From a virus, in the IMG/VR virus record IMGVR_UViG_3300029319_009270, positions 26,545-90,544 of that record: a stretch of DNA of 64,000 nucleotides. The stretch is one strand, 5' to 3'. Below, piece by piece: positions 7,741 through 37,132 of the stretch. Under the pieces are notes generated by a model. That model searched no databases and was not told the DNA's origin. It saw only the letters and a program-made list of their open reading frames with translations. The position numbers were made by a program, and so were the translations under genes. Each line of letters begins with the position of its first letter. Position 1 is the stretch's first letter.

Positions 7741-8074
7741 GTTTCAGTGCTCTCCAAAATAATTCTTCATCTATAACTATCGTACATAAATCATTTTTTT
7801 TATCATTGTCATGATATAATCTAACTAATTTAAATTTCAAAGGAGTGTTAAATTCAATTATTTTTTCCCTATAAGTGATATCGTTTAAAACAACTGTTTC
7901 TCTTAAATCATCTATAAAATTATTAAATGTTAAATAAGCCTTTTTATTTTCTACAAGCAATTCCCTAAGTATGTTTACATTGTTATTTTCATTCTTTACA
8001 TAATTAGTATCGAATAATTTTTCTTTTGTCAAAATATTTTTAAGTGAGTCACTAATTAAAAAATTTTCTGACAT
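7727..8074 (-). CDS. Hypothetical protein
   Basis: 115 residues, unrecognised. The N-terminus is helical (SDSLKNILTKEKLF), the C-terminal half strand-rich (LKFKLVRLYHDND, CTIVIDEELFWRALKHV). No catalytic motif. It lies 2 nt behind the DCoH-like gene and overlaps the acidic gene by 14 nt, so it belongs to the same coupled operon. Confidence 0.55.
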   Translation of the reverse strand: MSENFLISDSLKNILTKEKLFDTNYVKNENNNVNILRELLVENKKAYLTFNNFIDDLRETVVLNDITYREKIIEFNTPLKFKLVRLYHDNDKKNDLCTIVIDEELFWRALKHVEL

Positions 8075-8076
8075 TT

Positions 8077-8481
8077 TTAATTCTCAATAAAATAATTGAC
8101 ATCTGAATAAAGTTCATCACTTATTTTTTTAATTTTTTTATCTTGTATTGTAATTCCATCAAAACCATGTGTATAAGTTTCTACTATAACCTCTAAATTA
8201 TCAACAACAATTTTGCAATGGTGATTAATTTCAAATTGATATTTGTATAATTCGTTAACAAAATACATGACATGTTTCTTATCTTTAAAAGTATAAGTAC
8301 GAACTAATCTTTCGGGATTAGTCGCAATAACCCACTCAGAATTATCCTCAATACTTATTGGAATATCACCTTGCGGATTCGAATCAAAATGCTTCATCCC
8401 TAAAAGAGCATTGCTAATTTTTGCTAAATCAACTGTATCGTTAACATCATTGCTTTCCCTTAAATATCTTATTAAACTCAC
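8077..8481 (-). CDS. Pterin-4a-carbinolamine dehydratase (DCoH)-like protein
   Basis: 134 residues. The C-terminal 90 residues fit the DCoH/PCD fold: a strand (RLVRTYTFKDKKH), a helix (VMYFVNELYKYQFE), then INHHCKIVVDNLEVIVETYTHGFDGIT followed by a final helix. The paired His H87-H88 and the distal H105 of the family catalytic triad are present; the usual Pro after the His pair is Cys. Cellular enzymes recycle 4a-hydroxy-tetrahydropterin; in a phage the role is unknown and may be a non-enzymatic dimer. The N-terminus MSLIRYLRESND carries LRE-S like the tagged proteins. Coupled by 4 nt overlap to the 929-residue gene. Confidence 0.62.
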   Translation of the reverse strand: MSLIRYLRESNDVNDTVDLAKISNALLGMKHFDSNPQGDIPISIEDNSEWVIATNPERLVRTYTFKDKKHVMYFVNELYKYQFEINHHCKIVVDNLEVIVETYTHGFDGITIQDKKIKKISDELYSDVNYFIEN

Positions 8482-11267
8482 AGCATGTCCTCTACTAACT
8501 TACTAATTAATCTTATTTCATTTAATTCTTGCTTTAAGCGCTCAGCTTCGTCTGATGCAATTTTTTGCTGATGTTCCATGTGTTGTACGTCAGCATATTC
8601 CTTGATTCCCCTTACTAATACATAAGGATATATATCGAAAGCAGCGTCTATTGCTTTTTTTCTTTTTTGTTCTGCTGTTGATTTTTCATCATCTTTCATG
8701 CGTTGTAAACTAACTAAATCAGCTTGCTGAACTTTATTCAGCAAAGACTTAATATCTGCTTCCTTTTCAGGTATGTATTCTGAAATAATCTTATCATACA
8801 ACCCAATACTTTCAGCATAGATTTTATAAAATTCATTTTCATCAACACCTAAAACTAAAAATTTCTGTGTACCTTTTTTGTTGGGCGAAGAAAAGTCAGG
8901 AACATTCTTTTTGCCCATAAAATGTTCTGCTAAACTAAAAGCTTCCTTGTAATCAATATCTTCATACGCAGCATCTAATTTTTCAGCAATTGATACACGC
9001 CACTTTTTATCTGTTTTTTGTATCACATCATCAAGAATATCGCCTAAAATACTCCTAGCTATAATACCTCCTAATCCGTGAATACCGGATCTATATCCTT
9101 CAACAATACCAGTTAACTCTTCTTCATTGAATGAATCACGAACCCAGTCTGTTAAAGCAAAAACAGGTATATCTTTATTATGCTCAATAGCACCCGACAC
9201 AAGAGCAATGTCTCGAAGCGGTAATTCCTGATATGCTTCGTCAATCATTTCGAAATCTTTATTTGCAATATTTATTGCATTTCTAAATTCTTCTGACTGT
9301 GTTGCTATAACTTCTGGATTGTTAATATCAATATTATCTTTTGTTTCTTCATTTTTAATTTTCAAAAATTGTTTTGATAAATCATCTATTTGTTCTTGTC
9401 TGTTATATATTTTTAAAAAGACAGGTAAATTTTGAATAACTTTTTCTATAACTTGAGAAGCAATCTCTGCAAACTTTTTTGCGCCAGGATGATTATCAGT
9501 CTCATTTTTCGATAGTTGTAATAATCGTAATTTTCTTTCAGGGAATTTTAAAACCCACTGCCTCAAACCTGATTCTCCTCTAAATCCGTACAAAGGCGCA
9601 ATGTGCGTATACCTTTGAGGATTTGCTTGCTTTTCTAAAGTTTTAATTAATTTCTCTGTTTCGCCAGACTCAGCATCATCAAGTTTTTGTTGTTGCTTTT
9701 CTAATTCAATCCTTTCCTTTTCTTTTTGTGCTGACTCATGAGAATCTACTGCATAAGCAACTGTTGAATCAACAAAAACTGTAATAGCCTCAAGCAATTC
9801 AGTTTTTGTCATTGTTACTGTTAACTCTGGAATATCTGGATTTTGTATTTTAAAGTTCCCATCTTTGGTATAATACTTTGACTTTTCCATCAAAGCATAT
9901 ATCGCAGGCGGATAAGTTTTTCTAATTTCATCAGCAAACTGGTGGGCATGAAAATTGAAATTTCTCATTGTGTAATATTCTGTAGCTCTATGAATTGAAA
10001 AGTACTTGTGGATAATTCGATCTATATTTACACCTTCTTCTTCAATATCGTACTTGTATGCCATTGTTATTAATTTAGCCATTTCTTTGTTAGCATCATT
10101 TGTGTTGTACTTAAAATGCGTTGCATAAATATCTAAATTTCTTTGATACGTCGGATTAAACTCATACAACCCTTTTAAGATTTTAAAAATTTGTGCCTCT
10201 ATTTGATCGTTTGTTAAATTAAAAATGGCTCTAGACCTAATAGCATTGTTATAAACTAAACCGTATTTTGAACTAATATCCTTCATAATTCCTGCGCTAT
10301 ATTCAACACTACCTACTGACCCAGGCTTTTTCCTTGTAATTGTCATTGCCTTTCCGAACCCTGTTTCTCTAGGTGCTATTTGTGAACCTCCGTATGTCAA
10401 ACTATGATTGGCAGAAATTAATTGATAGTTAACTTCATAAACTGCTTGCATTGCAACAAAAACAACATCCATATGAGGCGTTTCAGGATTATCAAACGAC
10501 CATGTTTTTGCTGCATCAACAATTGATTGTAATTCTTCCGGGACTTCTTCTTCATTAACTATGATTGCAGCGGCTCGCTCTGCTGCTCTTAGTCTTGGTT
10601 CAATAATTTTTGATGCATCAACATTAGCGGGTACTACAACTATGTCTTTAAATTGCTTCATCATGTCTTCGATATCTTTAATATCTTGAACATTTTGATC
10701 ACCTTGCTGTTTAATTTGTTGAGATATTAATTGTGCATACTCACCTGTCGTTATCTCACCGCCACCAAAATCGTCAGCGATATCTTCATCATCGATCTCT
10801 TTATCATCATCGTCCGCGCCCTGCTGTTTAAGCCACTGTGCTGCTGCATCATCTTTATCACCGAATGGATCATCATCATCATGATAAGATTCAATTAATC
10901 TTCTAAATGATTCTAAGAGCTCGTCACTCATTTTTTTATCTTGATGACTATCTAAAGAGTTGTCCAACATTCTATGAAGTTGTCTATAAAATTTTTCTAT
11001 CTGATCTTCAGGGACTTCTGCCGCTATTAATTGTGCAGCTCGACCTAATTCTCCTTTTGTCCCTGGGACATATTCTGCGTCATCGACAGGGGGAGCTTCT
11101 ACTGCCAGCTGTGATGACATCATCTCAACAGGTTTAGTAGGTAAATCTTCTGATTCCATTCCACTATCAAACATTGTACTTGTCATATCACCGTAGCTAG
11201 GTGTTCTATTTTCAACTATTTTTTTAATAAAATTTTCAAGTACTGTCTTCTTTATTGTTATGCTCAT
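8478..11267 (-). CDS. Very large tagged protein, candidate injected virion protein
   Basis: 929 residues from the ATG at 11267, which has GAGG seven bases ahead. Begins MSITIKKTVLENFIKKIVEN, a basic amphipathic helix ending in IVE-N. An acidic region follows (about 125-175, D/E/G runs such as DDDDKEIDDEDIADDF), then long helical regions and a charged coiled-coil (EKERIELEKQQQKLDDAESGETEK, near 520-545) and a C-terminal coiled-coil. No known enzyme motif was found. Size, tag and neighbours suggest a head-packaged or ejected protein. The promoter-proximal 15-mer at 11283-11297 is shared with another tagged gene. Confidence 0.65.
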   Translation of the reverse strand: MSITIKKTVLENFIKKIVENRTPSYGDMTSTMFDSGMESEDLPTKPVEMMSSQLAVEAPPVDDAEYVPGTKGELGRAAQLIAAEVPEDQIEKFYRQLHRMLDNSLDSHQDKKMSDELLESFRRLIESYHDDDDPFGDKDDAAAQWLKQQGADDDDKEIDDEDIADDFGGGEITTGEYAQLISQQIKQQGDQNVQDIKDIEDMMKQFKDIVVVPANVDASKIIEPRLRAAERAAAIIVNEEEVPEELQSIVDAAKTWSFDNPETPHMDVVFVAMQAVYEVNYQLISANHSLTYGGSQIAPRETGFGKAMTITRKKPGSVGSVEYSAGIMKDISSKYGLVYNNAIRSRAIFNLTNDQIEAQIFKILKGLYEFNPTYQRNLDIYATHFKYNTNDANKEMAKLITMAYKYDIEEEGVNIDRIIHKYFSIHRATEYYTMRNFNFHAHQFADEIRKTYPPAIYALMEKSKYYTKDGNFKIQNPDIPELTVTMTKTELLEAITVFVDSTVAYAVDSHESAQKEKERIELEKQQQKLDDAESGETEKLIKTLEKQANPQRYTHIAPLYGFRGESGLRQWVLKFPERKLRLLQLSKNETDNHPGAKKFAEIASQVIEKVIQNLPVFLKIYNRQEQIDDLSKQFLKIKNEETKDNIDINNPEVIATQSEEFRNAINIANKDFEMIDEAYQELPLRDIALVSGAIEHNKDIPVFALTDWVRDSFNEEELTGIVEGYRSGIHGLGGIIARSILGDILDDVIQKTDKKWRVSIAEKLDAAYEDIDYKEAFSLAEHFMGKKNVPDFSSPNKKGTQKFLVLGVDENEFYKIYAESIGLYDKIISEYIPEKEADIKSLLNKVQQADLVSLQRMKDDEKSTAEQKRKKAIDAAFDIYPYVLVRGIKEYADVQHMEHQQKIASDEAERLKQELNEIRLISKLVEDML

Positions 11268-14036: not shown

Positions 14037-14729
14037 TTAACCTCTAATAACAGCCAAAATTCTATCTGCTCTTTCAATTCTTTTTTCTATTACATTCCAA
14101 TTTAGTTCTTTCATCATAGCTGTCGTGTACAACTTTACATCTTTAAGGTAATCCCTATAATAAGCATGTTGCCAAACATCCATTACGATCACCGGATAAA
14201 ATCCAGCAGGAACTTGCTGAGAATGCAAGTCTATAACACAGTTCATGTATTTTTGTGTGTATGTATTTAAATATGTAACTGCCCAACCACATCTAGCAGC
14301 AGAACAGCATGCGATAAAATCTCTTTGCCAGTCATCAAAAGAACCAAAGTCCCTCTGCAACCTCATAAAAGAAAGAGAATCCATCGTTATTTCAGAATTA
14401 ACATCGCTTATGTTTGCAAAATATAATTCATGGAGGTAAGCAGCATTCATATTGTAAGTCTCATCAATTTTTAATTGACGATAATCAGAATGATTTGAAT
14501 TAGATTTTGATCGATCAACAGTGTCTAACTTTGCACTAATCTCATTAAAATCTTTAAGATACTGCTGATACAGTTTTTTGTGATTTTCTTTATTCTTGTT
14601 ACTAAGAAATTCTGTGTTTAACTTAAATTGTTTTTCTTGAGCAATTAGCGCTTCATCTATTCTATCTTCTTTCAATCCTAAGTTGTCTTTAATTAAAGAT
14701 TTCACTTCATTATTTAACAAGTAATCCAT
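14037..14729 (-). CDS. Fe/Mn superoxide dismutase homologue
   Basis: Enzymes of this family convert superoxide to peroxide and oxygen. 230 residues, slightly longer than bacterial SODs. All four metal ligands can be placed: H50 (NHKKLYQQY, matching the family HHKTYV helix), H100 (NAAYLHELYF, matching NAAxxxHxxYW), and D184 and H188 in DVWQHAYY. Further C-terminal features fit: LNWNVIEKRI corresponds to the NW..V..R end. The usual GWAWL strand appears as CGWAVTYLN. It lies among virion-type genes, 2 nt from the tagged acidic gene, so it may be packaged rather than only expressed in the cell. Activity is not proven; a structural reuse is possible. Confidence 0.85.
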   Translation of the reverse strand: MDYLLNNEVKSLIKDNLGLKEDRIDEALIAQEKQFKLNTEFLSNKNKENHKKLYQQYLKDFNEISAKLDTVDRSKSNSNHSDYRQLKIDETYNMNAAYLHELYFANISDVNSEITMDSLSFMRLQRDFGSFDDWQRDFIACCSAARCGWAVTYLNTYTQKYMNCVIDLHSQQVPAGFYPVIVMDVWQHAYYRDYLKDVKLYTTAMMKELNWNVIEKRIERADRILAVIRG

Positions 14730-15001: not shown

Positions 15002-15011
15002 ATAAGTATTA
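15002..15011 (-). promoter_or_regulatory. TAATACTTAT motif, copy 1
   Basis: This 10-mer on the minus strand recurs at 34417-34426 and 45285-45294, each time between genes and upstream of a start codon. It may contain a -10-like TAATACT. The low complexity of the region makes this tentative. Confidence 0.3.
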
Positions 15012-15434
15012 CGAATCAATCGTTCTTACTATAATTCCAGAGCTTTCTAGTATATCTATTCCCTTACTGTTAGGATATCTTTCTAAATATATGACTTCTT
15101 TAATTCCTGCATTAATAATTGCTTTGGCGCAAACATCACAAGGAGATAATGTCAAGTACATTTTTTTGTCTTTTGACGTATTGTAGTCACACTTAATTAA
15201 TGCATTGATTTCAGCGTGTATAAAACCACTCATACCTACCTGATTTGAATCCCTTGTATTTGGACCGCCTTTTTGATCTCCATTATATCCAACAGCAAAA
15301 ACCTGAGTGTTGTCTTCTGACACAATAACACAGCCGACTTTGTGTTTTGGGTCGACTGATCTACAAGCTATCATTCTAGCAAATTGGGACCAAATATGGT
15401 CCCAACTAGGTCTTCCACTTCTGATTGCGTACAT
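15009..15434 (-). CDS. dCMP deaminase
   Basis: Zinc enzyme that deaminates dCMP to dUMP, feeding dTMP synthesis. 141 residues. Zinc and catalytic residues are visible: H73 and E75 in FIHAEINAL, and C99/C102 in SPCDVCAK. The flanking GYNGDQKG and NAGIKEVIYLE segments fit the ComEB/dCMP deaminase family better than guanine or cytosine deaminases. It lies 2 nt from the DHH gene and near thymidine kinase. Together with ThyX and dUTPase-like genes it forms a C-to-T route. Confidence 0.93.
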   Translation of the reverse strand: MYAIRSGRPSWDHIWSQFARMIACRSVDPKHKVGCVIVSEDNTQVFAVGYNGDQKGGPNTRDSNQVGMSGFIHAEINALIKCDYNTSKDKKMYLTLSPCDVCAKAIINAGIKEVIYLERYPNSKGIDILESSGIIVRTIDS

Positions 15435-16302: not shown

Positions 16303-16878
16303 CTAAATGCGCATATAAGTATGGTGTTCCTGACATCTTGGCTCGTAAAGTTCTGACCCACCTACTTGAATTTTTTTATTCGCATTACTTAAACTATGTT
16401 GTTGTTTTTTGTGTGTATATCTTGCATCTTTCTGGCATATCGGACAAACAGCTTTACATTTTACAATTCTTGTACAAAAAGGCATTATTTTTTGTACTTC
16501 TTCAAAAGGCTCTCCTAAAAAATTTAAATCAATTGAAGCAATTACTACATCATAACCCATTTTAAAAAGATCGATACACTCTTGTGCACTACCTTCTATT
16601 AAAAATAACTCATCTATAATTACACAGTCATAAAAGTCTGCGCCTAGATCATGAGATTTCATAATCTCTATAATTTCTTTTCCTGTATTAACAAGATGAG
16701 CATCAAGCTTATTGAAATTGTGTGTAACTATTTCGCCCTTACCAGAATATCTGTCATCCATTTTGGATTTAAAAGCAATCAAATTCTGTTTCCGGTATTC
16801 CCTTTTATCAGCTTCCATTAATAACTTTGTTGTCTTCGAACTGAACATTGGCCCAGTATACAATATCATTTCTGCCAT
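16303..16878 (-). CDS. tdk: Thymidine kinase (type II, TK1-like)
   Basis: Phosphorylates thymidine to dTMP for salvage. About 191 residues from the ATG at 16878, which overlaps the previous stop as TAATG; an upstream in-frame GTG is less likely. P-loop TGPMFSSKTTKL starts at residue 8, DELFLI is the Walker B-type segment, and zinc-binding cysteines occur as CKAVCPIC and a later C near the C-terminus. ARYTHKK and GGSELYEPRC match the lasso and zinc-ribbon of TK1-type enzymes. Length is family-normal. Confidence 0.94.
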   Translation of the reverse strand: MAEMILYTGPMFSSKTTKLLMEADKREYRKQNLIAFKSKMDDRYSGKGEIVTHNFNKLDAHLVNTGKEIIEIMKSHDLGADFYDCVIIDELFLIEGSAQECIDLFKMGYDVVIASIDLNFLGEPFEEVQKIMPFCTRIVKCKAVCPICQKDARYTHKKQQHSLSNANKKIQVGGSELYEPRCQEHHTYMRI

Positions 16879-17858
16879 TACTTCAAACCCCACCACTTAA
16901 CTGTTTTTTCTAATCCTTCCCAAAATCTTACTTTAGGCGTGTAACCAAAAGCTTCTTTTGCTCGAGTTATGTCTGCACATGTATGCATAACATCACCTGG
17001 TCGCCATGGTGCAGTATGAACTTTTGATCCGAAGTTATCTATAAAATAAGTTAATATCTCTCCATTTGTTACAGAATCGCTACACGCAATATTAAAACAT
17101 TGACCACGCCATCTTTCTTTTACCTTTGAGGAAAGTATATTTGCATCAACAACATTATCAACATAACACATGTCTCTACTTTGAGTTCCATCACCATCCG
17201 ATCGACAGCTAAGACCGTTTTTAGTAGCATGACACCAAGCAGAAACTGCAGTCGAATAAGGGCTGTCTCCATACTGACCCGGCCCAAACACGTTAAAATA
17301 TCGAAGGCAAACAATATCAGAATCATCATAAAGTGAACCATAAACTTTGGCGATATCTTCACACGCAGATTTTTGCCAAGCATAAGGTGACTTAGGCTTT
17401 TTGATCGTTGATTCAGGCGTAGGCATAATATCTGCGCCACCATAAACTGACGATGATGAAGAAAAAATAATTCTTGTTTTTCCAATTCTTGCTGCATCAA
17501 ATAATTTAACTGTATTCATTAAGTTGACCTCAGTCGTCTCTGCTGGATTCTCAACTGAAAAACTTACTCGTGGTACCGCAGCAAGATGAAATATGCAGTC
17601 ATAATTTCCTAATGCAACTTTTTCTAATATTCCGCTGAAAGCGAAATCACAATGAAAAAACCTAATAAAATCTCTGCCTGTTTCATCTATGCTGTGCATA
17701 ATCTGTGCCATTGATTTTCTAATTTTATATTCTTCTAACGAATCAAAATTACCGCTAGATAAATCATCAACAATGTCAATCGTGTAATTTTCTTCATGTA
17801 GCTTCTTAACTAAATTAGAACCTATGAAACCGAAACCACCCGTTACTAAAACTTTCAA
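16878..17858 (-). CDS. NAD-dependent sugar epimerase/dehydratase (extended SDR)
   Basis: 326 residues starting at a TTG with GGAG six bases upstream. Rossmann motif VTGGFGFIGSNL (5-16), catalytic SSSSSVYGG and Y159-x3-K163 (YAWQK), and FNVFGPGQ of UDP-glucose-4-epimerase-like proteins. The substrate is not fixed by sequence. With a second SDR at 31889-32866 and a sulfotransferase, it may build a sugar for a surface or DNA modification. One-base overlap with thymidine kinase. Confidence 0.88.
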   Translation of the reverse strand: MKVLVTGGFGFIGSNLVKKLHEENYTIDIVDDLSSGNFDSLEEYKIRKSMAQIMHSIDETGRDFIRFFHCDFAFSGILEKVALGNYDCIFHLAAVPRVSFSVENPAETTEVNLMNTVKLFDAARIGKTRIIFSSSSSVYGGADIMPTPESTIKKPKSPYAWQKSACEDIAKVYGSLYDDSDIVCLRYFNVFGPGQYGDSPYSTAVSAWCHATKNGLSCRSDGDGTQSRDMCYVDNVVDANILSSKVKERWRGQCFNIACSDSVTNGEILTYFIDNFGSKVHTAPWRPGDVMHTCADITRAKEAFGYTPKVRFWEGLEKTVKWWGLK

Positions 17859-17875: not shown

Positions 17876-18790
17876 CTAAATTATAATATGCGCAGAATTA
17901 AAGTTTATTCTTATTCTACATTTCAAATTATTTAATCTTAATTGATTGTATACTTTACTACAAAGATAATACAAGAATTGAATATCGTATTTTAAAGTAT
18001 CTTTTGTATTAGATGATCTAAAAACAAAATTACAGTCAAATATTCTATTTCTTACTGTGAACTGCCCAAAAGAAATACAAGTATCAGAGCTGTACACAAA
18101 TCGTCTAGAAGCAGTATTTTCTTTTCTATTATGTTCATTATTCCCATTCAACTCATTTTCTATTTTGTTCTGAACTGATTTTAATATGCTTTGATAATAA
18201 TCTTTTTCGGGCTCGTATTCCAAAACTTTTAAATTAATATCTTTAAAATCGCAGTCGCTATAATAAGTTAGATTGATATGAGAAGCTTCTAAACTATCAT
18301 TTGCTGCCGCGAACATATTTACATAACCAGCAACATCTTGAATGCTGATGGCTTCTATCGTCATCAACTCTTTAATAACCGGTTCAACGTAAGAAAGCGT
18401 ATTATCATCTCTAATAACCATCACGTTTGGATACAGTCTTAATTCCTCAGCTGCTTCTTCAAACAATCTATAAACTTTTTTAAGGGTTGTTATGGTTTGT
18501 ATATCATCCCCTCTTTTGTTATAACGTCGTTCAATCTCGTCCCACGATGGTAAAAGTATAATAATACGATTGTTCAAGTTTTTAATTTCTGCATTAAGTC
18601 TTTCAACTTCAATAAAAGTATCGCGATCGTAAAGCTTTGCATAAACTAACATTGACAAAGCAGATCGATCTTGGATATTCCAACGATACTTAGAAATTTT
18701 ATGCAGCTGATTATAAAAAGAAGTCTTGCCAGACAAATCAGGGCCTTCTAAAATTAACTGACTTGTTGGGAAACAATTTGTTTTATTCAT
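17876..18790 (-). CDS. P-loop deoxynucleotide kinase-like domain fused to a thymidylate synthase/dCMP hydroxymethylase-like domain
   Basis: 304 residues from the ATG at 18790, preceded by AGGAGGT. Residues 10-30 hold LILEGPDLSGKT, a thymidylate-kinase type P-loop. The last 80 residues match the TS core with correct spacing: SRR at 228-230, catalytic C238 (DTC), QFTV, R258-S259 exactly 20 residues after the Cys, then D269 eleven further on, and H301 in SAHII. Asp at that point replaces the dUMP-binding Asn of TS, as in dCMP hydroxymethylases. The chain stops soon after H301, lacking the usual C-terminal folate-site segment. Function is inferred; ThyX elsewhere would cover ordinary dTMP synthesis. 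Confidence 0.72.
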   Translation of the reverse strand: MNKTNCFPTSQLILEGPDLSGKTSFYNQLHKISKYRWNIQDRSALSMLVYAKLYDRDTFIEVERLNAEIKNLNNRIIILLPSWDEIERRYNKRGDDIQTITTLKKVYRLFEEAAEELRLYPNVMVIRDDNTLSYVEPVIKELMTIEAISIQDVAGYVNMFAAANDSLEASHINLTYYSDCDFKDINLKVLEYEPEKDYYQSILKSVQNKIENELNGNNEHNRKENTASRRFVYSSDTCISFGQFTVRNRIFDCNFVFRSSNTKDTLKYDIQFLYYLCSKVYNQLRLNNLKCRIRINFNSAHIII

Positions 18791-18864: not shown

Positions 18865-19530
18865 CTAGCTCACGTATTTCAATATTAATTCAGGCACTGA
18901 ATAATTGAACAACTCAAAATCTTTTTGATACAGATTGTAAAAATATTTTGTAACATCTGGCGAATATTCCCAGTCAGGTTGTATATCTTTATTAATTCTG
19001 GATTTATTCATGTGAGGTAGTTTTTGATTGCTGATGACGTCTTTGTCATTTAAAAACTTTATAACATTTTCAATTTCTTCAAATTTAAAAACTTTTGTTT
19101 TATCATCAACAAAATAATGTTGAGGCACCCAGTGATTATCGTCGAAACCCATTCCTAATTTAGGAACAAGATCTGTAAAAACTGCGTGCATATAATGAAT
19201 AATCCCATGAGGCGTTATTGAGTTTCTAGTAATCGTGGTTGTCTCTAGCTTTTCGTAACCTTTAATTACATAAAATATTTCTGACAACATTCTTTCTATG
19301 GGATTTCTAACGATCGTAAATGTAAATTCAATGTCTAGATCTGAATTCATTTTATTATACACGTCTTTCGTATGATGAGGATGCGCCTTAAAATAGTTTG
19401 ACTCTTTGGTAAAAAACCTTTTCTCATCTTTTTTCCAACCTGCACTTTGTATTAGTTTTCTTATAGAAGTACCTCCAGTTTTAGGTATGTGCACAAACTG
19501 TATTGTTCTGTTGTCTTTATAGAATATCAT
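18865..19530 (-). CDS. Sulfotransferase family protein
   Basis: Transfers sulfate from PAPS. 221 residues. 5'-phosphosulfate loop HIPKTGGTSIR (14-24) and 3'-phosphate site VRNPIERMLSEIFY (74-87) are textbook; DNHWVPQHYFV fits the carbohydrate sulfotransferase group. The acceptor is unknown: host surface glycans, a fibre glycan or a small metabolite. It overlaps the polymerase gene by 4 nt. Such genes occur in marine phages and are thought to alter surfaces or modify nucleotides; neither is shown here. Confidence 0.85.
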   Translation of the reverse strand: MIFYKDNRTIQFVHIPKTGGTSIRKLIQSAGWKKDEKRFFTKESNYFKAHPHHTKDVYNKMNSDLDIEFTFTIVRNPIERMLSEIFYVIKGYEKLETTTITRNSITPHGIIHYMHAVFTDLVPKLGMGFDDNHWVPQHYFVDDKTKVFKFEEIENVIKFLNDKDVISNQKLPHMNKSRINKDIQPDWEYSPDVTKYFYNLYQKDFELFNYSVPELILKYVS

Positions 19531-22500
19531 ACTACAAGCGGCCTAACTTTTGCTACGCTAGTGCTAGCACCCCAGTTTGGATCATTGTGTGCTGTACACA
19601 GCCATATCGAGTAAGGTTGCATTTCTCTAGGGGCACCACCCCACATTCTAAGCCAGCCCGTATTACTTTCATGATCAGTAATTTTAATTCTATAAAATGT
19701 TTTCTTATTTTTTGTAGTCTTTTTAATCATCTCAACAACACAATACCAGGCAACACCTTTTTCGTTAGACTCCATATTAAGAACTGACTTAACTCCGCTT
19801 TTCATGATTTTTTCCATTAATTCTTCGGGAAATGCCAGATCATCTCTTGTCGCAGAACACATGTCCTGATACATTTGCAATTTTTCAATACGATTCCAAT
19901 CATCTTGGTCTTTTGTTTCACTGATCAGTATAGGAAGCAAATCAGGTGCATTTTCTTTTTTTGCTTTCCTTACAGTCATTCCCCAGCGACTCTTTTTAAG
20001 TTTTTCATAATTGTCGATAATAATACTGTGTAACTGCTTGTGATGATCGATAGTACCATCCCACATCTCTTCTAAACAATCAAGTGCTTCAACTTTACAA
20101 AGAGCAGAAAAACCTGTTTTGTTTAATTTACTATGATACCACTTTCCATCTTCATTAAATAACATGCTATCAACCGATGTATAAGGTCGGTTAGCCATGA
20201 TTTCTTTTACAGCATTCTTTCCTAAACCTTTGATTGATGTCAAGGGTGGAATAAAAGCTTGCTTCTGCTCTGACCACGACCATGCTAGACCTGATTCATT
20301 GATGTCAGGTGTTGAAACTTCATAGCCCATTGCTTTAATTTCTGAAATTGCTTTTGAAAGATTTTTAGGATTGTTATTCTCAGATTCTAGAATAGTTCCT
20401 AACCAATCTGTTTCATAGTATGTATGAAGCCATGCAGCATAGTAAGATCCAATTGCATATGCCACAGCATGAGACTTATTAAATCCATAAACTGAAAAGA
20501 ATTCAATTCTTTGCCACAATTCTTCGCTTACATGTTCGGGTACGCCATTAATATCTTTTGCACCCTTAATAAACTTTTGTTTAGCTGCTTCTCGTTCATC
20601 ACCTTTTTTACCCATTGTATCAAGAGACTTTTTAACCAACGTCTTTCGAAGCTTATCAGATTCAGCAGGTGTAAACCCTCCAAGCTTTTGGGCTAAAATC
20701 ATGAACTGTTCTTGAAATGTTACGTGCCCAAATGTTGGACCAAGAACCTCCTTGATGATTGGGTGAGGATATTCAATCTCACTGGCTCGAGCTTTATCCT
20801 TTACATATTTCAAGTGAACATTCGCACGAAGAGGGCCAGGGCGATATATCGCTGTTAACGCTCCAAGCTCTTCAATAGAAGTAGGTTTAGCGTCCTCGCA
20901 GAATCGCCGAGCACCTTCTGCAGTAAACTGGAATACACCTACTTTTCTTCTTTGATGATAAACATGTTCCCAAACCTTCATATCATCTTGTTCAACGTAA
21001 CGACAATTTAAATGATCATCAAACCAATCTCGAATCTCGAGAAACGTTGGTTCTTTACCGTTTTCTTTTGTTAAAATACGTTTGATGCAATTTTCTACGT
21101 CTTTTAATAACGTAAGGCCAAGAAAGTCAAACTTAATAAATCCGTTATCCTCAAGATTACGAAAGTTCATGCCTTCTGTCCAGGGAGTTTGCAACTCACC
21201 CCGAACACCAATTATAGGCATACCTCGTGCCAGATCATCAGCTGGTCCAATAATCACACCACCTGCATGACGCCCAACTGATCTATTCTGCATAAAGAGA
21301 GCTTCGATATGATCCTTTACTTTCGGATATTTTTCCATAAACTCTCGATATTTTTTTGAATACTGCATACAGTCAGAATGCTTGAGCACAAAAACAGACT
21401 TTTCAGTATTTTCATCTCTTGCTTGTGCCATTACCTCATCTTGTAGGGGCCCAGTCATTTTGTTAACTTCAGCAAAGTCTATGCCGTAAAATTTAGATAT
21501 ATCCTTTACAAGCGACTTAAGTTTGAGCGTGTTAAAATTAGACACAGGAATGACAGCCTCATCACCGTAAAGATCTCGAGCGGCGTTAATTAATGCGTCA
21601 CGATCACCAGCATCAGAATCAATATCAGGCCAGGACGTCCTATGTCTACCTAGAAAACGTTCCCAAAGCAAATCATATTTCAAAGGATCAATTTGAGTAA
21701 TCCCTAGTAAGTAGTTGACAAGAGATCCACCACCGGAGCCTCGTGCAGCACCAAATAAGGTGTGATCGGCTGCTTTGTGAAACACTTCATACATTACAAG
21801 GAAGTAATTTTCAAATCCAAGAAATTTAATATCTTCAAGTTCGTGTTTAGCTCTTTCAACGTATTCTTTTTTCGTATGCAAATTTTCTTTAATCATTGCA
21901 TCTTTGACTTTCTTTGCTAGCTGTTGAAAAGCAGTTTCATTAGGCTTGTTAAAATCAGGTAGTTTAACACTAGTGTCAATCCAGCAATCATCACATTTTT
22001 CCCACGCAATATCATATGTTCTTTCGATTGAATCTTTAACAGTTTGTTCATAACCTTCATAAGTGTCTTTATATTCATCATAGTGACAAACAAACTCATC
22101 CCACATTTGTTGTGCATTTTTAGGATACAATTCACACTTTAAATCTTCAAACTCAGGCAGTGGTGAAGGATCATTACCCATCCAGCCTAACTTCTTATAA
22201 AGCTCTCTTGCTTCCCACTTATCAGGAGAATAGTAATGTGAGTCTGGTGTAGAAATACAATTAATTCCTGTTTGCGCTGAATGGCGCAGCAAATGGTGAT
22301 TTACAAGGTGTTGTTGTTTCAATCTGTTGAATTGCAGTTCAAGATAAAAATTTTCTTCACCCACTGCGTCAACAAAGCGATCAGAAAGATACATTAGTTC
22401 CTGTTGTATCTCCTCATCAGATTTTTTCATTGCATTTCCTCTCATAATCCTATTAGAGTAAATACCTCCTAAACACGCAGTTGAAACATTCAATCCACGC

Positions 22501-23039
22501 CCATGTTGTTTAAGTAAGTCAAAATCAATCCTTGGGTAACGATAGAATCCTTCTGTATAAGCTCTTTTAATTAAAGTAAACAGGTTACCTAATCCTTCAC
22601 GATTTTGTGCTGTTACAACAAGATGGTACCTTCTTTTCCACTCGTCTTTGCCTACAACGACAGTCTTTGTTTCTTCTTCATTTTCAATAACATGCCCGCC
22701 TTCTTCTTCTTCTTTTATTGCCTTTTGTTTGGCAGCAGCTCTATCTAACTTTGCTTGCTCGTAATCTGTTTTCCAGTCACTAAGTGAAGGAACAAAATAA
22801 AATTCGCAACCATAAATTTGACGATACTTTATTCCTTTCTTTTGCAGTTTTGTTGCGTGTTTGTGCGCGTGTGCTAACCCGGAACCGTTGCCGTGATCAG
22901 TTAAACCCCAAGCGTCCATTCCATTTTCTATAACAAAATCAATATGATCAGAAGGATATCCTAATCCATCAAACACAGAAAAACCTGTGTGTCCGTGTAA
23001 TCCAACAAATCTTTTAGGGGGCTTTATTAATAAACTCAT
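19527..23039 (-). CDS. dnaE: DNA polymerase III alpha subunit (DnaE, C-family replicase)
   Basis: 1170 residues, as long as E. coli DnaE. N-terminal PHP domain with HGHTGFSVFDG (H15, H17) and LTDHGN; polymerase palm Asp pair in WPDIDSDAGDR and third Asp in IKFDFLGLTLL; fingers with FQFTAEGARRF and TAIYRPGP; a helix-hairpin-helix (IKGLGKNAVKEIM) and a C-terminal OB-like region (KKTFYRIKITDHESNTGWL). Thus the phage has a bacterial-type replicase rather than the family A or B enzymes common in phages. No clamp, loader or epsilon exonuclease is in the window; whether it uses the host clamp is unknown. Confidence 0.96.
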   Translation of the reverse strand: MSLLIKPPKRFVGLHGHTGFSVFDGLGYPSDHIDFVIENGMDAWGLTDHGNGSGLAHAHKHATKLQKKGIKYRQIYGCEFYFVPSLSDWKTDYEQAKLDRAAAKQKAIKEEEEGGHVIENEEETKTVVVGKDEWKRRYHLVVTAQNREGLGNLFTLIKRAYTEGFYRYPRIDFDLLKQHGRGLNVSTACLGGIYSNRIMRGNAMKKSDEEIQQELMYLSDRFVDAVGEENFYLELQFNRLKQQHLVNHHLLRHSAQTGINCISTPDSHYYSPDKWEARELYKKLGWMGNDPSPLPEFEDLKCELYPKNAQQMWDEFVCHYDEYKDTYEGYEQTVKDSIERTYDIAWEKCDDCWIDTSVKLPDFNKPNETAFQQLAKKVKDAMIKENLHTKKEYVERAKHELEDIKFLGFENYFLVMYEVFHKAADHTLFGAARGSGGGSLVNYLLGITQIDPLKYDLLWERFLGRHRTSWPDIDSDAGDRDALINAARDLYGDEAVIPVSNFNTLKLKSLVKDISKFYGIDFAEVNKMTGPLQDEVMAQARDENTEKSVFVLKHSDCMQYSKKYREFMEKYPKVKDHIEALFMQNRSVGRHAGGVIIGPADDLARGMPIIGVRGELQTPWTEGMNFRNLEDNGFIKFDFLGLTLLKDVENCIKRILTKENGKEPTFLEIRDWFDDHLNCRYVEQDDMKVWEHVYHQRRKVGVFQFTAEGARRFCEDAKPTSIEELGALTAIYRPGPLRANVHLKYVKDKARASEIEYPHPIIKEVLGPTFGHVTFQEQFMILAQKLGGFTPAESDKLRKTLVKKSLDTMGKKGDEREAAKQKFIKGAKDINGVPEHVSEELWQRIEFFSVYGFNKSHAVAYAIGSYYAAWLHTYYETDWLGTILESENNNPKNLSKAISEIKAMGYEVSTPDINESGLAWSWSEQKQAFIPPLTSIKGLGKNAVKEIMANRPYTSVDSMLFNEDGKWYHSKLNKTGFSALCKVEALDCLEEMWDGTIDHHKQLHSIIIDNYEKLKKSRWGMTVRKAKKENAPDLLPILISETKDQDDWNRIEKLQMYQDMCSATRDDLAFPEELMEKIMKSGVKSVLNMESNEKGVAWYCVVEMIKKTTKNKKTFYRIKITDHESNTGWLRMWGGAPREMQPYSIWLCTAHNDPNWGASTSVAKVRPLVV

Positions 23040-23129: not shown

Positions 23130-24125
23130 TTAAATACTAGTCGGTGAGTTTGAAAATTTTATTTTTGTAATTGTTGGACACGACTCAGTTATTCTATCAG
23201 TAATATAAGTCGTCATTTCTGTCAAAGAATCAAATACTTTATGTTCATTATGATGCAATTTAAATAATTTAGCTGATTCGATGACATCTGTTTTTGATAA
23301 AACAATATGCGTTGTCCCAGTAAAATTAATTGCTTTTATCAGCTTGTTGAGATTGAGCCAGTTAACCTTTCTTCTTCTACCCGTTGTAACACCAAACTCA
23401 TGACCAAGATCTGCAATTTTCAGTAATTCAGGATCATTAAGTAAACTTTCAGGAAAGTCCGGATCAACTCCTGACCTAGTATCATAAACTTTCGCAGCTC
23501 CCCATATATTCCTTATCATCTGAATTGGAAATCCTAAGGAGCATGCTCCGTGTGGTAAGGTTGTACTAGAAGTAACATAAGGATAATTACCAAAATCTAC
23601 ATCCAGCCATATTCCTTGCGCACCTTCACAAAGAACTTTTCCGGAAAGATTCTCATCCCACATCATCCAGTAGGGTATAACGTCTTTAGCAAGAACCCCC
23701 TTGCGAGCCATTTTATCAGCGTAGCAAGGGGCTATTCCCTTTGATGTGGTTCCAAGTTTTTTTGCTAACTTTTCCGCATCTTCATCAATGTGAAGTCTGC
23801 TTACAATATGCGCTCTGGGTGAAACCTTAACTTTTGATATATCAAAACCGTTTTTCTCCAAATATCTAATTTCCGCCATAAGTGAATTCTCATGAACAAC
23901 GCAACCTGGCCCTATGACTGATGTTACACCATGAAAAACACCACTTGGTACTAAATGGGTTTTGTATTTTTTACCATCGACAAAAACAGTGTGTCCTGCA
24001 TTGTTACCACCAGCCCAACGACAAACAAAATCATATTCACCACTACCGGCTAATTCTGATGTAATTTTTCCTTTTGCCTCATCGCCCCAAGCTAATCCGC
24101 AAACAATATCTGCGTATTCAATCAT
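23130..24125 (-). CDS. purA: Adenylosuccinate synthetase (short PurA type)
   Basis: Joins IMP and aspartate with GTP to give adenylosuccinate, the precursor of AMP. 331 residues, nearer the short archaeal PurA and phage PurZ size than the ~430 of E. coli. GLAWGDEAKGK (10-20) keeps the catalytic Asp (D15), and GGNNAGHT keeps the catalytic His (H45); GTTSKGIAP, GVTTGRRRKVNW and SKTDVIE complete the active site. PurZ enzymes that make aminoadenine have lost that Asp, so ordinary PurA chemistry is the better reading. GMP reductase at 28833-29918 could supply its IMP. Confidence 0.93.
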   Translation of the reverse strand: MIEYADIVCGLAWGDEAKGKITSELAGSGEYDFVCRWAGGNNAGHTVFVDGKKYKTHLVPSGVFHGVTSVIGPGCVVHENSLMAEIRYLEKNGFDISKVKVSPRAHIVSRLHIDEDAEKLAKKLGTTSKGIAPCYADKMARKGVLAKDVIPYWMMWDENLSGKVLCEGAQGIWLDVDFGNYPYVTSSTTLPHGACSLGFPIQMIRNIWGAAKVYDTRSGVDPDFPESLLNDPELLKIADLGHEFGVTTGRRRKVNWLNLNKLIKAINFTGTTHIVLSKTDVIESAKLFKLHHNEHKVFDSLTEMTTYITDRITESCPTITKIKFSNSPTSI

Positions 24126-28832: not shown

Positions 28833-29918
28833 CTAAACAAATACAGAGTTAAACTGTTGTGTGCATCTAACGAATGTAGCACATTTGCTCAACTGTTTTA
28901 AGGTGGGCGCTCCTACGTAAGTACAAGTAGATCTAACCCCACCTAAAATATCTTTGATTGTATTTTTGACTTTTCCTTTATAGGGTATTTCTACTGTCCG
29001 ACCTTCAGAAGATCGGTATTCTGCCACGCCGCCTGAATGTTTTTGCATTGCAGTATCAGAGCTCATACCGTAAAACTGTATGTAGTGTTTTTCTTCATAA
29101 ACTGGACCTAGCTTATCACCATAAATAGAAAGCTCTATCTCACCTGTTTTAAAACACTTAGTTATAATTTCACCACCCCCTTCGTCATGACCGGCCAACA
29201 TTCCGCCTAACATTACAAAGTCAGCACCGGCTGCAAATGCTTTGGCCACGTCTCCCGGGCAAGTGCATCCACCATCTGCGATGATATGACCGCCTAAACC
29301 GTGCGCTGCATCAGCACATTCAATAACAGCTGAAAGCTGTGGGTATCCAACGCCAGTTTGAATTCTTGTAGTGCATACAGAACCCGGGCCAATACCAACC
29401 TTAACAACATCTGCTCCTGCGAGAATAAGCTCTTGTGTCATGTCTGCAGTGACAACATTACCAGCAATGATGTTGCAATGAGGAAAATCACTTCTGACTA
29501 GTTTAACAAAATCAGTAAAGTGTTCTGAGTATCCATTCGCTATATCAATACAAATCCAACTTAGATTACACGTTGAAATTATTTCTTTTGCTTTCTTGTA
29601 CTCTTCTACGTTTGTGCCCACACTAATAGCAAGATGATCTGTGTCTATTTGTCCGAACTGACCATACCAGTCCTCAGGTGTATTTTGCTTTGTTATGCAG
29701 GTAAACATCTCACATAACGCTAGCTCGTGTGCTATATTAAACGTGCCTACCCCGTCCATGTTCGCAGCCATAATTGGGATCCCAGTCCAGAATTTGCCGC
29801 TGTTTCTAAACGTATACTTTCGACGCAAGTCGACTTCTTTCCTAGATCGGAGGATACTGCGTTTTGGACGAATTAGTACATCTTTATAATCTAATTTTAT
29901 TTCTTGTTCAATTCTCAC
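28833..29918 (-). CDS. guaC: GMP reductase
   Basis: NADPH-dependent reductive deamination of GMP to IMP. 361 residues against 347 in E. coli, and very similar throughout: [12 protein letters not shown] near the start, the catalytic loop [14 protein letters not shown] with C182, [35 protein letters not shown], and the YGMSSDTAM...[15 protein letters not shown] closing segment. No CBS domains, and the flap fits GMP reductase rather than IMP dehydrogenase. An insert near 250-275 adds length. Paired with PurA it converts guanine to adenine nucleotides. Confidence 0.96.
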
Positions 29919-34485: not shown

Positions 34486-34935
34486 TTATTCTATTTCACC
34501 TTCATATCTTAATTCAAGCAAACGTTCAGATGCAGTACAATCTTGCAAGTAAGCATCTAATTGTTCCAACGAAGTGCATACTGCAATTCCCGATGCTGCT
34601 AACATGAGATTAAATTGTGCACCGGGTGGTAAACCATCGCAAAAATAAACAATTGGCTTTTCTAAACAATTCATATAACCTGCTTCAAAAATCGACCCCA
34701 TATCTTTGTTTCTTGTATTGCATAGCATCCAGTCACATTCATGAAGATGCCTAATATTTCCTGAAAATATTTGATCTTGTATAGACTCATTAGCATCATT
34801 ATCACAAAGATTTTCATCCTTCGGTGAAAAATAAGAAATGCCGTGTTTTTCAAAAACTGATTTAATATTTTCTACTTCTTCCAACCACTCAGGTGAAAAC
34901 CACCCGCTTGCTAAATAAACTTTTCCTAAACTCAT
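34486..34935 (-). CDS. Nucleoside 2-deoxyribosyltransferase-like protein
   Basis: 149 residues. KVYLASGWFSPE at the start, SPKDENL in the middle and CDWMLCNTRNKDMGSIFEAGYMNCLEKPIVYF with the probable catalytic Glu (in GSIFEAGY) match the NDT fold, and NLMLAASG follows as in the family. Members exchange or hydrolyse the base of (deoxy)nucleosides or nucleotides. Overlaps the ThyX gene by 1 nt, so it probably cooperates in pyrimidine handling. Specific substrate unknown. Confidence 0.78.
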   Translation of the reverse strand: MSLGKVYLASGWFSPEWLEEVENIKSVFEKHGISYFSPKDENLCDNDANESIQDQIFSGNIRHLHECDWMLCNTRNKDMGSIFEAGYMNCLEKPIVYFCDGLPPGAQFNLMLAASGIAVCTSLEQLDAYLQDCTASERLLELRYEGEIE

Positions 34936-35924
34936 TATTCTCTCCCCATAAATTGATTGTATTGATTTGTTAATTGATTAATCTCTTCTAATGTTTCTTC
35001 CCAAAGCTGTGTAAAAATTGTTGGTGTACCCGGGACATGATTTTTACCATTAATATCCTCACGACGAGACTGATAAATTGTATCATTGGGATGATATTCA
35101 AACTTATCGTTCTTTGGTTCTGGCCAATATAGGTTTGTACCTCGTGATGTTTCGCCACCTTTACCATCAGGTACGCGAAATGTTTTAATATAGTGCATAT
35201 CTGGTTTATTAAAATTAATACGCGCGGTTGCTTCAGGCAGAACTTTGATTACTTCTCTTGCCATGTACGCGGCAAGTAAATTATCAGCTGCCGGTTGAAT
35301 TTGCATGTCTTGACGTTGAGCGATAAAACCTAACAGATCTTTTAAGTTAAGACGCATTAGATAAAATGAAGTCATGCACTTTGGTAAAATCATTCTTGCA
35401 TCCATCATTGATACAATCTTGGAATCTGTCATGTCAGCATATAATTCCTTAGATTCGCGAACTAACTTTTTCCAGCGCCTATCAAACTCGGGTGTGTTTT
35501 GAACAGCTTCAGGAATTACTGCGGGATCATCCCTTAAGTCACGATCACCAGTACACTGTGCGGCAAAACTACCAGCACGATGTCGTATGATGTGTGTAAC
35601 CTCTTGAAATGATAAGCCACTTAACTTAAATGTAAACCCTAAACATTCCATAGGTGTTGGAAGTGCACGAAAACAAAGAACATCCTCGAGATTTGCAGAC
35701 AGTTCTTTTAAACTAGCAGTAGCTGGATTTGTCTCATCGTGATGATCAGCCCATGTTGCTTTTACATATTGCCAAGCAACATTAAGCGCTTGAGATCTAG
35801 TTGGATGATCAACTAGTTCAACTTTCAAATGTGCAAGATTGTTATAAAATGCTGTGTTGGGTTCTTGACCAAACTTAAGTTCCATTGGCAGATCAACAGG
35901 TTTCAAATCATTATTCTGTGGCAT
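34935..35924 (-). CDS. thyX: Flavin-dependent thymidylate synthase ThyX
   Basis: Converts dUMP to dTMP using FAD, NADPH and methylenetetrahydrofolate. 329 residues. The ThyX motif RHRxxSxxxxSxR appears as RHRAGSFAAQCTGDR (114-128), with Cys in place of the second Ser. The C-terminal active-site helix region ARMILPKCMTSFYLMRLNLKDLLGFIAQR is well matched, though the usual AQxEIR is changed to MQIQPAA. So it is a divergent but probably active ThyX. AAGGAGG precedes the ATG; overlaps the NDT-like gene by 1 nt. Confidence 0.87.
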   Translation of the reverse strand: MPQNNDLKPVDLPMELKFGQEPNTAFYNNLAHLKVELVDHPTRSQALNVAWQYVKATWADHHDETNPATASLKELSANLEDVLCFRALPTPMECLGFTFKLSGLSFQEVTHIIRHRAGSFAAQCTGDRDLRDDPAVIPEAVQNTPEFDRRWKKLVRESKELYADMTDSKIVSMMDARMILPKCMTSFYLMRLNLKDLLGFIAQRQDMQIQPAADNLLAAYMAREVIKVLPEATARINFNKPDMHYIKTFRVPDGKGGETSRGTNLYWPEPKNDKFEYHPNDTIYQSRREDINGKNHVPGTPTIFTQLWEETLEEINQLTNQYNQFMGRE

Positions 35925-35988: not shown

Positions 35989-36909
35989 TTATTTTATTAT
36001 TAACTTATTAGGATTCGTATAGACAAATGTATTATCACGACCATCAACTTCTAAATTATAATTTTTTCTAGGATAATAACAAACTATTCCGTGCTTTGCA
36101 TAATCCACAATATGTTTGGGAGCATCGTCAATTGCAGCAACTATTTTATCTTTATCATAGTACTTTGACCTAGCACACCATCGAAATTTTTCTGTGCTAA
36201 AGTCAACTGCATCAAACGGAATACTGTTATTTTTTAGCCAATAAAACGTATCATAAAAACATTTTAAATTTTCTTTAGGTCTAGCTGTCAATAGCTGGAT
36301 CCAGTAGCCTTGCTTTTTTAAATTATTTAGCATCTCAATCGATCCATCAACGACATCTAAATTCCTAAACCCACCCTTATTAACAAATTCGTAAAATACA
36401 GCTTCAGGATTTAAATCTAATTTATTCAATGCAGTTATAAAATAGTATTCTTTACTATAGACATCAATTTCTAAATTGTAATTTACACCTAGCCAATCTG
36501 CAAAACCTTGTCTAAATTCAGTCAAAACATCATCCATATCAACAATAACGACAGGTTGAGACCCATCCCAACTATCTTGTGTCTTGTGAAGAAAATTTAA
36601 ATATGAATCTTTATCATAAAAAGCTTCAATAAAATTTTCACTAGATATTTGATTAATATTAAGGATAGCTAAGATATATCGAAATATATCCACAGATTCA
36701 TAGAGCATTTTTGTTTTGTCTACAGAATCTGTTTGTGCATGATGATCTTTAAAATCAACAGATTGCATTAGCTCACTAACTTCTGAATGTAAGCAAAGTG
36801 ATAAAGTTTTTGTAATATCTACAATTTCTCTATCACTTAAGTTTTTTTCGCTTAGATTATATAAGCTAGAATTGAATTTTGCTTGTAAATTGAACAGGTT
36901 TTTCAGCAT
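35989..36909 (-). CDS. Fusion of an all-alpha NTP pyrophosphatase (MazG/dUTPase-2 type) and a HAD 5'-nucleotidase
   Basis: 306 residues from the ATG at 36909 (GAGGT upstream; a longer start at 36945 is possible). Residues 30-110: LHSEVSELMQ and YESVDIFRYILAIL give the ExxE...ExxD metal motif of MazG/dUTPase-2 proteins. Residues 125-300: VVIVDMDDVLTEF, LLTARPKEN and AIDDAPKHIVDYAKHG are HAD motifs I, II and IV of 5'(3')-deoxyribonucleotidases. One chain could thus turn an NTP to NMP and then to nucleoside. The target nucleotide is unknown. Overlaps the previous gene by 44 nt. Confidence 0.82.
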   Translation of the reverse strand: MLKNLFNLQAKFNSSLYNLSEKNLSDREIVDITKTLSLCLHSEVSELMQSVDFKDHHAQTDSVDKTKMLYESVDIFRYILAILNINQISSENFIEAFYDKDSYLNFLHKTQDSWDGSQPVVIVDMDDVLTEFRQGFADWLGVNYNLEIDVYSKEYYFITALNKLDLNPEAVFYEFVNKGGFRNLDVVDGSIEMLNNLKKQGYWIQLLTARPKENLKCFYDTFYWLKNNSIPFDAVDFSTEKFRWCARSKYYDKDKIVAAIDDAPKHIVDYAKHGIVCYYPRKNYNLEVDGRDNTFVYTNPNKLIIK

Positions 36910-37132
36910 TTTTGACCTCACTAATTTTGCCTCCTGCAATTGCAAAGGCGTCTGTTAAACAATCAGGCTCTATTTTTTCAAAAAATATTGAGCTATGATC
37001 TGATAAGCGAATAATTCCTGATAAAAAATCTTTATTTATATTTGTAATAATACACTGCAATTCATCCTTATTACAAAAACTAAAAGAATTAATTATTTTA
37101 TCATTACTAGCAGTCAAAATTAGTTTGTGCAT
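36866..37132 (-). CDS. Small hypothetical protein
   Basis: 88 residues; the ATG at 37132 overlaps the preceding stop (TGATG). Strand-rich with scattered Cys (FSFCNKDELQCII, EPDCLTDAFAIAGGKISEV). No family recognised. Its 3' end overlaps the MazG-HAD gene in another frame by 44 nt, unusual but supported by good Shine-Dalgarno sites for both. Confidence 0.5.
   Translation of the reverse strand: MHKLILTASNDKIINSFSFCNKDELQCIITNINKDFLSGIIRLSDHSSIFFEKIEPDCLTDAFAIAGGKISEVKNAEKPVQFTSKIQF

Follow-up and report, generated by a model that had tools for sequence, protein, structure and literature searches.

A kinase-thymidylate synthase fusion gene in an uncultured virus

The window analysed here is a stretch of 64,000 nucleotides, corresponding to bases 26545-90544 of the 90,544-base record of an uncultured virus. 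At 17876-18790 it carries a gene that we name K-TS, for kinase-TS (thymidylate synthase) fusion, with an open reading frame of 304 codons plus a stop and a ribosome-binding site (AGGAGGT) 5 nt ahead of the ATG at 18790. A preliminary description made from the sequence had listed a P-loop, SRR, C238, R258-S259, D269 and H301 in this gene; we found all of them, on the minus strand, which that description had not given. The gene and its relevant neighbours are listed in Table 1.

Table 1. Coordinates of K-TS, its domains and associated genes in the window.
Feature	Positions	Strand	Description
K-TS	17876..18790	minus	304 aa; dNMP-kinase-like domain (~1-146) and putative minimal cytosine-type TS core (~150-304)
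Kinase-like domain	18355..18790	minus	P-loop GPDLSGKT, DRS motif, LNN, RGD; related to phage/thymidylate kinases (YorR-like)
TS core	17879..18343	minus	E195, SRR 228-230, C238, R258-S259, D269, H301; W80/Y94 segment and C-terminal folate segment absent
ThyX-div	34935..35924	minus	329-aa ThyX of divergent type; motif RHRAGSFAAQCTGDR; paired with K-TS in co-occurrence
Nucleoside 2-deoxyribosyltransferase	34486..34935	minus	PF05014 (E=3.7e-16); overlaps ThyX-div; near K-TS in many relatives
dUTPase_2/MazG-like + NT5C deoxyribonucleotidase fusion	35989..36945	minus	PF08761 (E=1.9e-6), PF06941 (E=1.3e-7)
dCMP deaminase	15009..15434	minus	PF00383 (E=3.7e-22), PHROG 174
DnaE-type DNA polymerase III alpha	19527..23039	minus	upstream of K-TS in most relatives
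NAD-dependent nucleotide-sugar epimerase	16878..17858	minus	PF01370 (E=2.6e-46); directly downstream of K-TS

Neither a tblastn search of INPHARED phages with K-TS nor an exact-peptide scan of viral contigs gave a match. Relatives were reached through the neighbouring epimerase and DnaE genes, which served as bait and led to 41 further loci with a K-TS relative, nearly all full-length, 32-50% identical and occupying the same position in the gene order. More distant relatives were added by a profile scan, among them one from a contig that had been assigned to a Euryarchaeota MAG (L143); this contig is probably viral, because K-TS there sits in the same DnaE-ThyX gene cluster. Every IMG/VR relative found is a kinase-TS fusion, and the full-length ones end just past an SxHxx motif. 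The homologue set comprises 59 non-redundant proteins less than 80% identical to one another, with a mean pairwise identity of 33%.

Profile searches bear out the proposed fusion on its kinase side. The PHROG 761 profile of phage thymidylate kinases matches the N-terminal half of K-TS with E=1.5e-8 and is matched by 26 of 26 homologues, and the K-TS family profile matches SPbeta YorR (PDB 2axp) with E=1.8e-8. Pfam PF02223 is matched by 10 of the 26, the K-TS of the window scoring below the gathering score, and nearly all K-TS members match thymidylate-kinase families. By its P-loop, DR motif and profile match the N-terminal part is a member of the thymidylate/dNMP kinase family, sharing the P-loop EGPD..GK, DR(S/F) and the RGDE region with enzymes such as YorR (PDB 2axp, 3kb2); these kinases lack a TS core, whereas K-TS has one attached. 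Searches of the K-TS family against Pfam and NCBIfam returned weak kinase matches only and no TS match above cut-off. If our reading of K-TS is true, it explains a gene to which standard annotation gives the name hypothetical or thymidylate kinase.

The TS core and its lost segments

The likeness of the C-terminal domain to TS is more than chance, because PHROG 160 (thymidylate synthase) matches residues 238-302 of K-TS (E=0.001) as well as 7 of 26 homologues (best E=5.8e-5), because hhalign aligns the core family with TS and dCMP-type references at a probability of 96% (E=3.6e-9), and because all seven TS landmarks fall among the 11 of 152 columns that are at least 95% conserved (hypergeometric p=1e-9). 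Six residues, R229, C238, R258, S259, D269 and H301, are invariant in all 59 homologues, and no other column of the 152 in the domain is. R230 and E195 are each kept in 58 of the 59, and the Ser of SRR in 52. The invariant residues and R230 correspond to TS residues of established function: R126', R127', R166 and S167 bind the nucleotide phosphate, C146 attacks C6, N177 recognises the base and H207 binds O3'. The best-scoring offset for E195 lands on the catalytic E60 of the T4 enzyme, a match that the other references did not reproduce, and on alignment the equivalence of E195 to E58 (T4 E60) is suggestive.

The preliminary description had placed the landmarks at exactly the spacing of TS. 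This is correct for R258-S259 and D269, which lie at +20 and +31 from C238, both TS values, but not for the distance from SRR to Cys, which is 8 residues in K-TS and 19 in TS, nor for that from Cys to His, which is +63 as against +61 in E. coli TS. The position of N177 is Asp in 59/59 homologues; thymidylate synthases have Asn, while Asp occupies the position aligned with D269 in T4 dCMP hydroxymethylase (D179) and in AfhB. Asp177 is a marker of modified-cytosine contigs (PMC8670742), and Asp at the N177 position is common to MilA, BcmA and T4 CH (PMC5175136). Since the literature thus ties Asp there to cytosine substrates, we take D269 as cytosine-type, as had been proposed.

Compared with TS-family references, the K-TS domain lacks the middle segment bearing W80 and Y94 (E. 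coli TS). It ends after the His of the last strand, the folate-closing C-terminus being gone in the homologues, and the Y209 position is I/V/R/L in most of them, so the residues of a folate site are not retained. The C-terminal loss had been recognised before, but it is accompanied by that of the middle segment. Judged from the alignments, the core keeps the nucleotide pocket and the nucleophile, and the folate half is gone. Without these two segments the domain cannot be counted as an ordinary TS or dCMP hydroxymethylase.

AlphaFold models of the whole K-TS and of the C-terminal domain have mean pLDDT values of 94.4 and 93.9. In Foldseek searches against the PDB, the best match of both models is AfhB, the 5-hydroxy-dCMP synthase of Mosigvirus (9iqu, 9iqc, with dCMP and FAD bound; E=7.4e-7 for the whole protein, 5.6e-8 for the domain), followed by thymidylate synthases and T4 dCMP hydroxymethylase. 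The top PDB matches of the domain model all belong to the TS superfamily (E from 5.6e-8 to 1e-5). TM-scores are modest, up to 0.68 by query length, as is expected since the core has lost part of the TS fold. The models and the hhalign result point to a TS fold and TS ancestry for the C-terminal part, as suspected earlier. Loss of the Cys or Asp from homologues, or lack of a TS fold combined with only canonical bases in the virion DNA, had been named as grounds for abandoning that suspicion; both residues are conserved in 59/59, and a TS fold is predicted.

T4 gp42, the dCMP hydroxymethylase (PDB 1b49, 1b5e), is the best PDB sequence match of the core (E=0.026) and has in common with it the TS fold, the Cys, Arg-Ser at +20, Asp at +31, SRR and the His; however, it is a stand-alone protein (246 aa) in which the middle segment and the folate part of the C-terminus are present, whereas K-TS is without both and is fused to a kinase. 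Canonical ThyA (PF00303) shares the fold and the nucleotide-site residues, but has a full folate site, and Asn where the K-TS core has Asp. AfhB, the closest PDB fold, resembles K-TS in its cytosine-type Asp, in a short C-terminus after SAH and perhaps in the use of flavin instead of folate; it differs in being stand-alone and in keeping the middle segment, and at 14-15% identity only the core aligns, without close homology that would include the N-terminal half of K-TS. We know of no ThyX partner of AfhB. Its top rank in Foldseek was not accepted as proof of a hydroxylase, because the AfhB chain is one of the shorter ones with a TS fold and still has a segment that is missing from K-TS.

A gene of Gordonia phage GodonK annotated as thymidylate synthase (256-1140 of locus L079) has a cytosine-type Asp, with CT after P, and lies near a thymidylate kinase gene; its sequence suggests that it probably encodes a dCMP-type enzyme.

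A divergent ThyX is paired with K-TS

The record carries two ThyX genes, a canonical one outside the window and a divergent one, ThyX-div, inside it. ThyX-div matches PF02511 with E=1.4e-18, above the curated cut-off, and has RHR and S in common with canonical ThyX. Where the canonical protein reads RHRTxSYNEISRRYT, however, ThyX-div reads RHRAGSFAAQCTGDR; the motif of its subfamily is RHR[AT]xS[FWY][AS]AQCTGDR, so that AQCTGDR takes the place of NExSxRY, the canonical combination of RHRx7S with NExSxR is not found, and the protein is ~100 aa longer. The ThyX proteins of Xanthomonas and SPbeta were rejected as members of this subfamily because they are distant (23-31% identity), and that of Carpasina because its motif there is RTRTGAYQQETSR.

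We scanned IMG/VR for ThyX-div independently of K-TS and kept 80 loci. K-TS is present in 32 of 32 ThyX-div records with at least 15 kb downstream, and in 36 of 42 with at least 10 kb, the other six having just 10-15 kb downstream. A divergent ThyX is likewise present in all 17 K-TS records of at least 100 kb, although in one (G067) it is of another subtype, below the family cut-off. Records found by the same epimerase bait that have canonical ThyX only do not carry K-TS (0 of 11), and none of the records searched reaches the classical TS cut-off (PF00303). The pairing of ThyX-div and K-TS is thus near-obligate. Part of the co-occurrence is due to the common descent and gene order of one broad phage group; the pair persists in the MAG contig and in Geobacillus phage GR1, and in two divergent lineages, G067 and G069, K-TS is paired with a different ThyX subtype. 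Canonical ThyX is present too in many ThyX-div records, and for this reason ThyX-div is probably not simply a source of dTMP. The earlier statement of a separate dTMP supply by ThyX can hold only for the canonical gene outside the window, since the ThyX of the window is divergent and tied to K-TS.

Two loci show other arrangements. In the G067 locus (L254, G067:C1:108000-126000; positions 7910-10442) a pair of adjacent divergent ThyX-like genes belonging to another subtype comes directly after K-TS, the second of the pair with RARVG for RHR, and GroES/GroEL-like genes stand next. In the G025 locus (L252, 3437-4908) a ThyX of another subtype overlaps the gene of an unfused P-loop nucleotide kinase, and a TS core is absent; this ThyX-kinase pair is possibly a related module.

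A split form of the module in Geobacillus phage GR1

The cultured phage GR1, whose host is G. stearothermophilus ATCC 10149, encodes a ThyX-div (UDY80709) that is 47% identical to that of the window. Directly after it, with a 1-base overlap, comes a stand-alone TS core of 151 aa (UDY80710; profile E=7e-9) that retains Cys, RSS, Asp and His, and a separate kinase of the K-TS kinase family (UDY80706) is encoded three genes upstream of ThyX-div (profile E=3e-15). In GR1 the kinase is therefore apart from the TS core, and the TS core stands beside ThyX-div. Two further genes of the cluster encode a nitroreductase-family flavoprotein and an alpha-glucosyltransferase (PHROG 2888, E=6e-53). The latter is a hint that GR1 DNA may contain a hydroxylated base; no base analysis is reported in the GR1 literature searched. 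A general DNA-glucosylation pathway was rejected, as phrog_2888 occurs in GR1 only, with no match in any of the 36 other records searched. None of the known DNA-modification genes is shared by all relatives in the records searched.

Possible functions of K-TS and ThyX-div

The explanation that we prefer, while granting it slightly less than an even chance, is a two-component module in which K-TS, as the nucleotide-holding and kinase arm, and ThyX-div make a C5-modified dCMP and phosphorylate the product. The TS core would bind a deoxycytidine-type 5'-monophosphate, with the phosphate held by R258/S259 and SRR (the SRR contact comes from the second subunit in TS), the base by D269 and the sugar by H301, and C238 would be poised to attack C6. 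ThyX-div, a flavoprotein by family, would supply or complete the C5 chemistry, be it methyl, hydroxymethyl or hydroxyl, and the two proteins, presumably in a complex, would jointly carry out or control the C5 step on dCMP. The kinase domain would then phosphorylate the modified product, which could be polymerised into phage DNA as modified cytosine.

We favour this two-component module because the six invariant residues are all nucleotide-site or catalytic positions of TS, because D269 matches the Asp of T4 dCMP hydroxymethylase and AfhB, and because the models match AfhB and then TS. The pairing of K-TS with ThyX-div argues for it as well, as do the arrangement in GR1, where ThyX-div overlaps a TS core encoded on its own and both a kinase and an alpha-glucosyltransferase are close by, and the neighbouring genes, which match steps of the T4 5-hydroxymethylcytosine pathway. 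By analogy, the gene set appears to mirror that pathway in dCTP/dUTP removal, for which the dUTPase_2/MazG-NT5C fusion is a candidate, in dCMP deaminase, in a C5-modifying step and in a dNMP kinase. Against it stand the absence of W80, Y94, Y209 and the C-terminal lid of TS, the partly shared descent behind the co-occurrence, the use of other ThyX subtypes in G067/G069 and G025, and the restriction of the glucosyltransferase to GR1, which implies that such decoration of DNA is no general trait.

In the main rival explanation ThyX-div alone makes a modified (d)CMP, and the TS core serves recognition or regulation without catalysis, either presenting the nucleotide to the fused kinase or gating that kinase. 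With half of the TS active site missing from the core, kinase fusion as its general architecture, and the RHR motif and other family residues retained in ThyX-div, this has a real but minor chance of being right; mere binding would need neither C238 nor what is probably the E58-equivalent, E195, yet both are kept at a mean identity of 33%, and the GR1 core is a separate gene that overlaps ThyX-div and is unfused to the kinase. We think it unlikely that the arrangement is a hybrid of two unrelated thymidylate synthase types, with ThyX-div and the TS core forming one active site that modifies cytosine nucleotides. In such a hybrid the core would bind dCMP and its Cys activate C6, ThyX-div would bring reduced flavin and a one-carbon donor (or oxygen), and the kinase would channel the product into the dNTP pool; a single active site shared by the TS and ThyX types would be categorically new.

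That the TS core is itself an AfhB-like flavin-dependent hydroxylase making 5-hydroxy-dCMP, with ThyX-div doing something else, would agree with AfhB being the best Foldseek match of both models and with 5-hydroxy-dCMP synthases being TS-superfamily enzymes (PMC13390438). We consider it improbable, given the middle segment of AfhB that K-TS lacks, the low identity, the nearly equal scores of TS structures and the tie to ThyX-div, which it leaves unexplained. Similarly little credence is due to the view that K-TS is simply a dNMP (dTMP/dCMP) kinase whose TS-derived domain serves dimerisation or allostery, with the DNA unmodified and ThyX-div as a second thymidylate synthase: the thymidylate-kinase matches and the lack of a known DNA-modification gene shared by all relatives speak for it, but canonical ThyX is often present alongside ThyX-div, which has lost the canonical NExSxR motif, and the invariant residues are exactly those of the TS site, Cys and Asp included. 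For the reading taken from the preliminary description, a dCMP hydroxymethylase or methylase that depends on folate and is joined to its kinase, the cytosine-type Asp, the catalytic Cys and the kinase fusion are indeed present. This is very improbable, as homologues stop right after SxHxx and are without the W80/Y94 and C-terminal folate segments, and the Pfam TS family is matched by none of the K-TS members; as all homologues are without the folate half, a folate enzyme acting on its own is unlikely on sequence grounds, and the suspicion of another donor, voiced in the same description, gains support.

The TS core and the kinase belong to known superfamilies. The literature searched, with incomplete coverage, describes no kinase-TS fusion, no pairing of K-TS with ThyX and no ThyX paralogue acting on dCMP. 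If the two-component module is real, it would be an undescribed phage route to modified cytosine that relies on no complete TS-type hydroxymethylase and, so far as seen, on no AfhB-type hydroxylase; it would also bring TS and ThyX, analogous families of thymidylate synthase, into a single pathway. An AQCTGDR ThyX together with a kinase-TS core would then be a sequence signature by which phages that probably have modified cytosine can be found. As the cultured phage GR1 carries the module, the central question can be put to a direct test.

Other genes in the window

The nucleoside 2-deoxyribosyltransferase gene is found near ThyX-div also in GR1 and in the MAG contig. Beside the dCMP deaminase gene, a gene for a protein with an iron/manganese superoxide dismutase C-terminal domain (14037-14729, minus strand; PF02777, E=4.2e-17) is conserved in most relatives. 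A sulfotransferase gene (18865-19530, minus strand; PF03567, E=9.2e-14) lies between DnaE and K-TS, and a relative of it, 30% identical, stands elsewhere in one other locus (L067). A defence-system reading is unsupported, PADLOC having given weak candidate matches only. The window also encodes, on the minus strand, an adenylosuccinate-synthetase-like protein that keeps WGDEAKG with Asp (23130-24125) and an IMP dehydrogenase/GMP reductase (28833-29918); purine remodelling by these two is possible, perhaps with relevance to PurZ-type questions.
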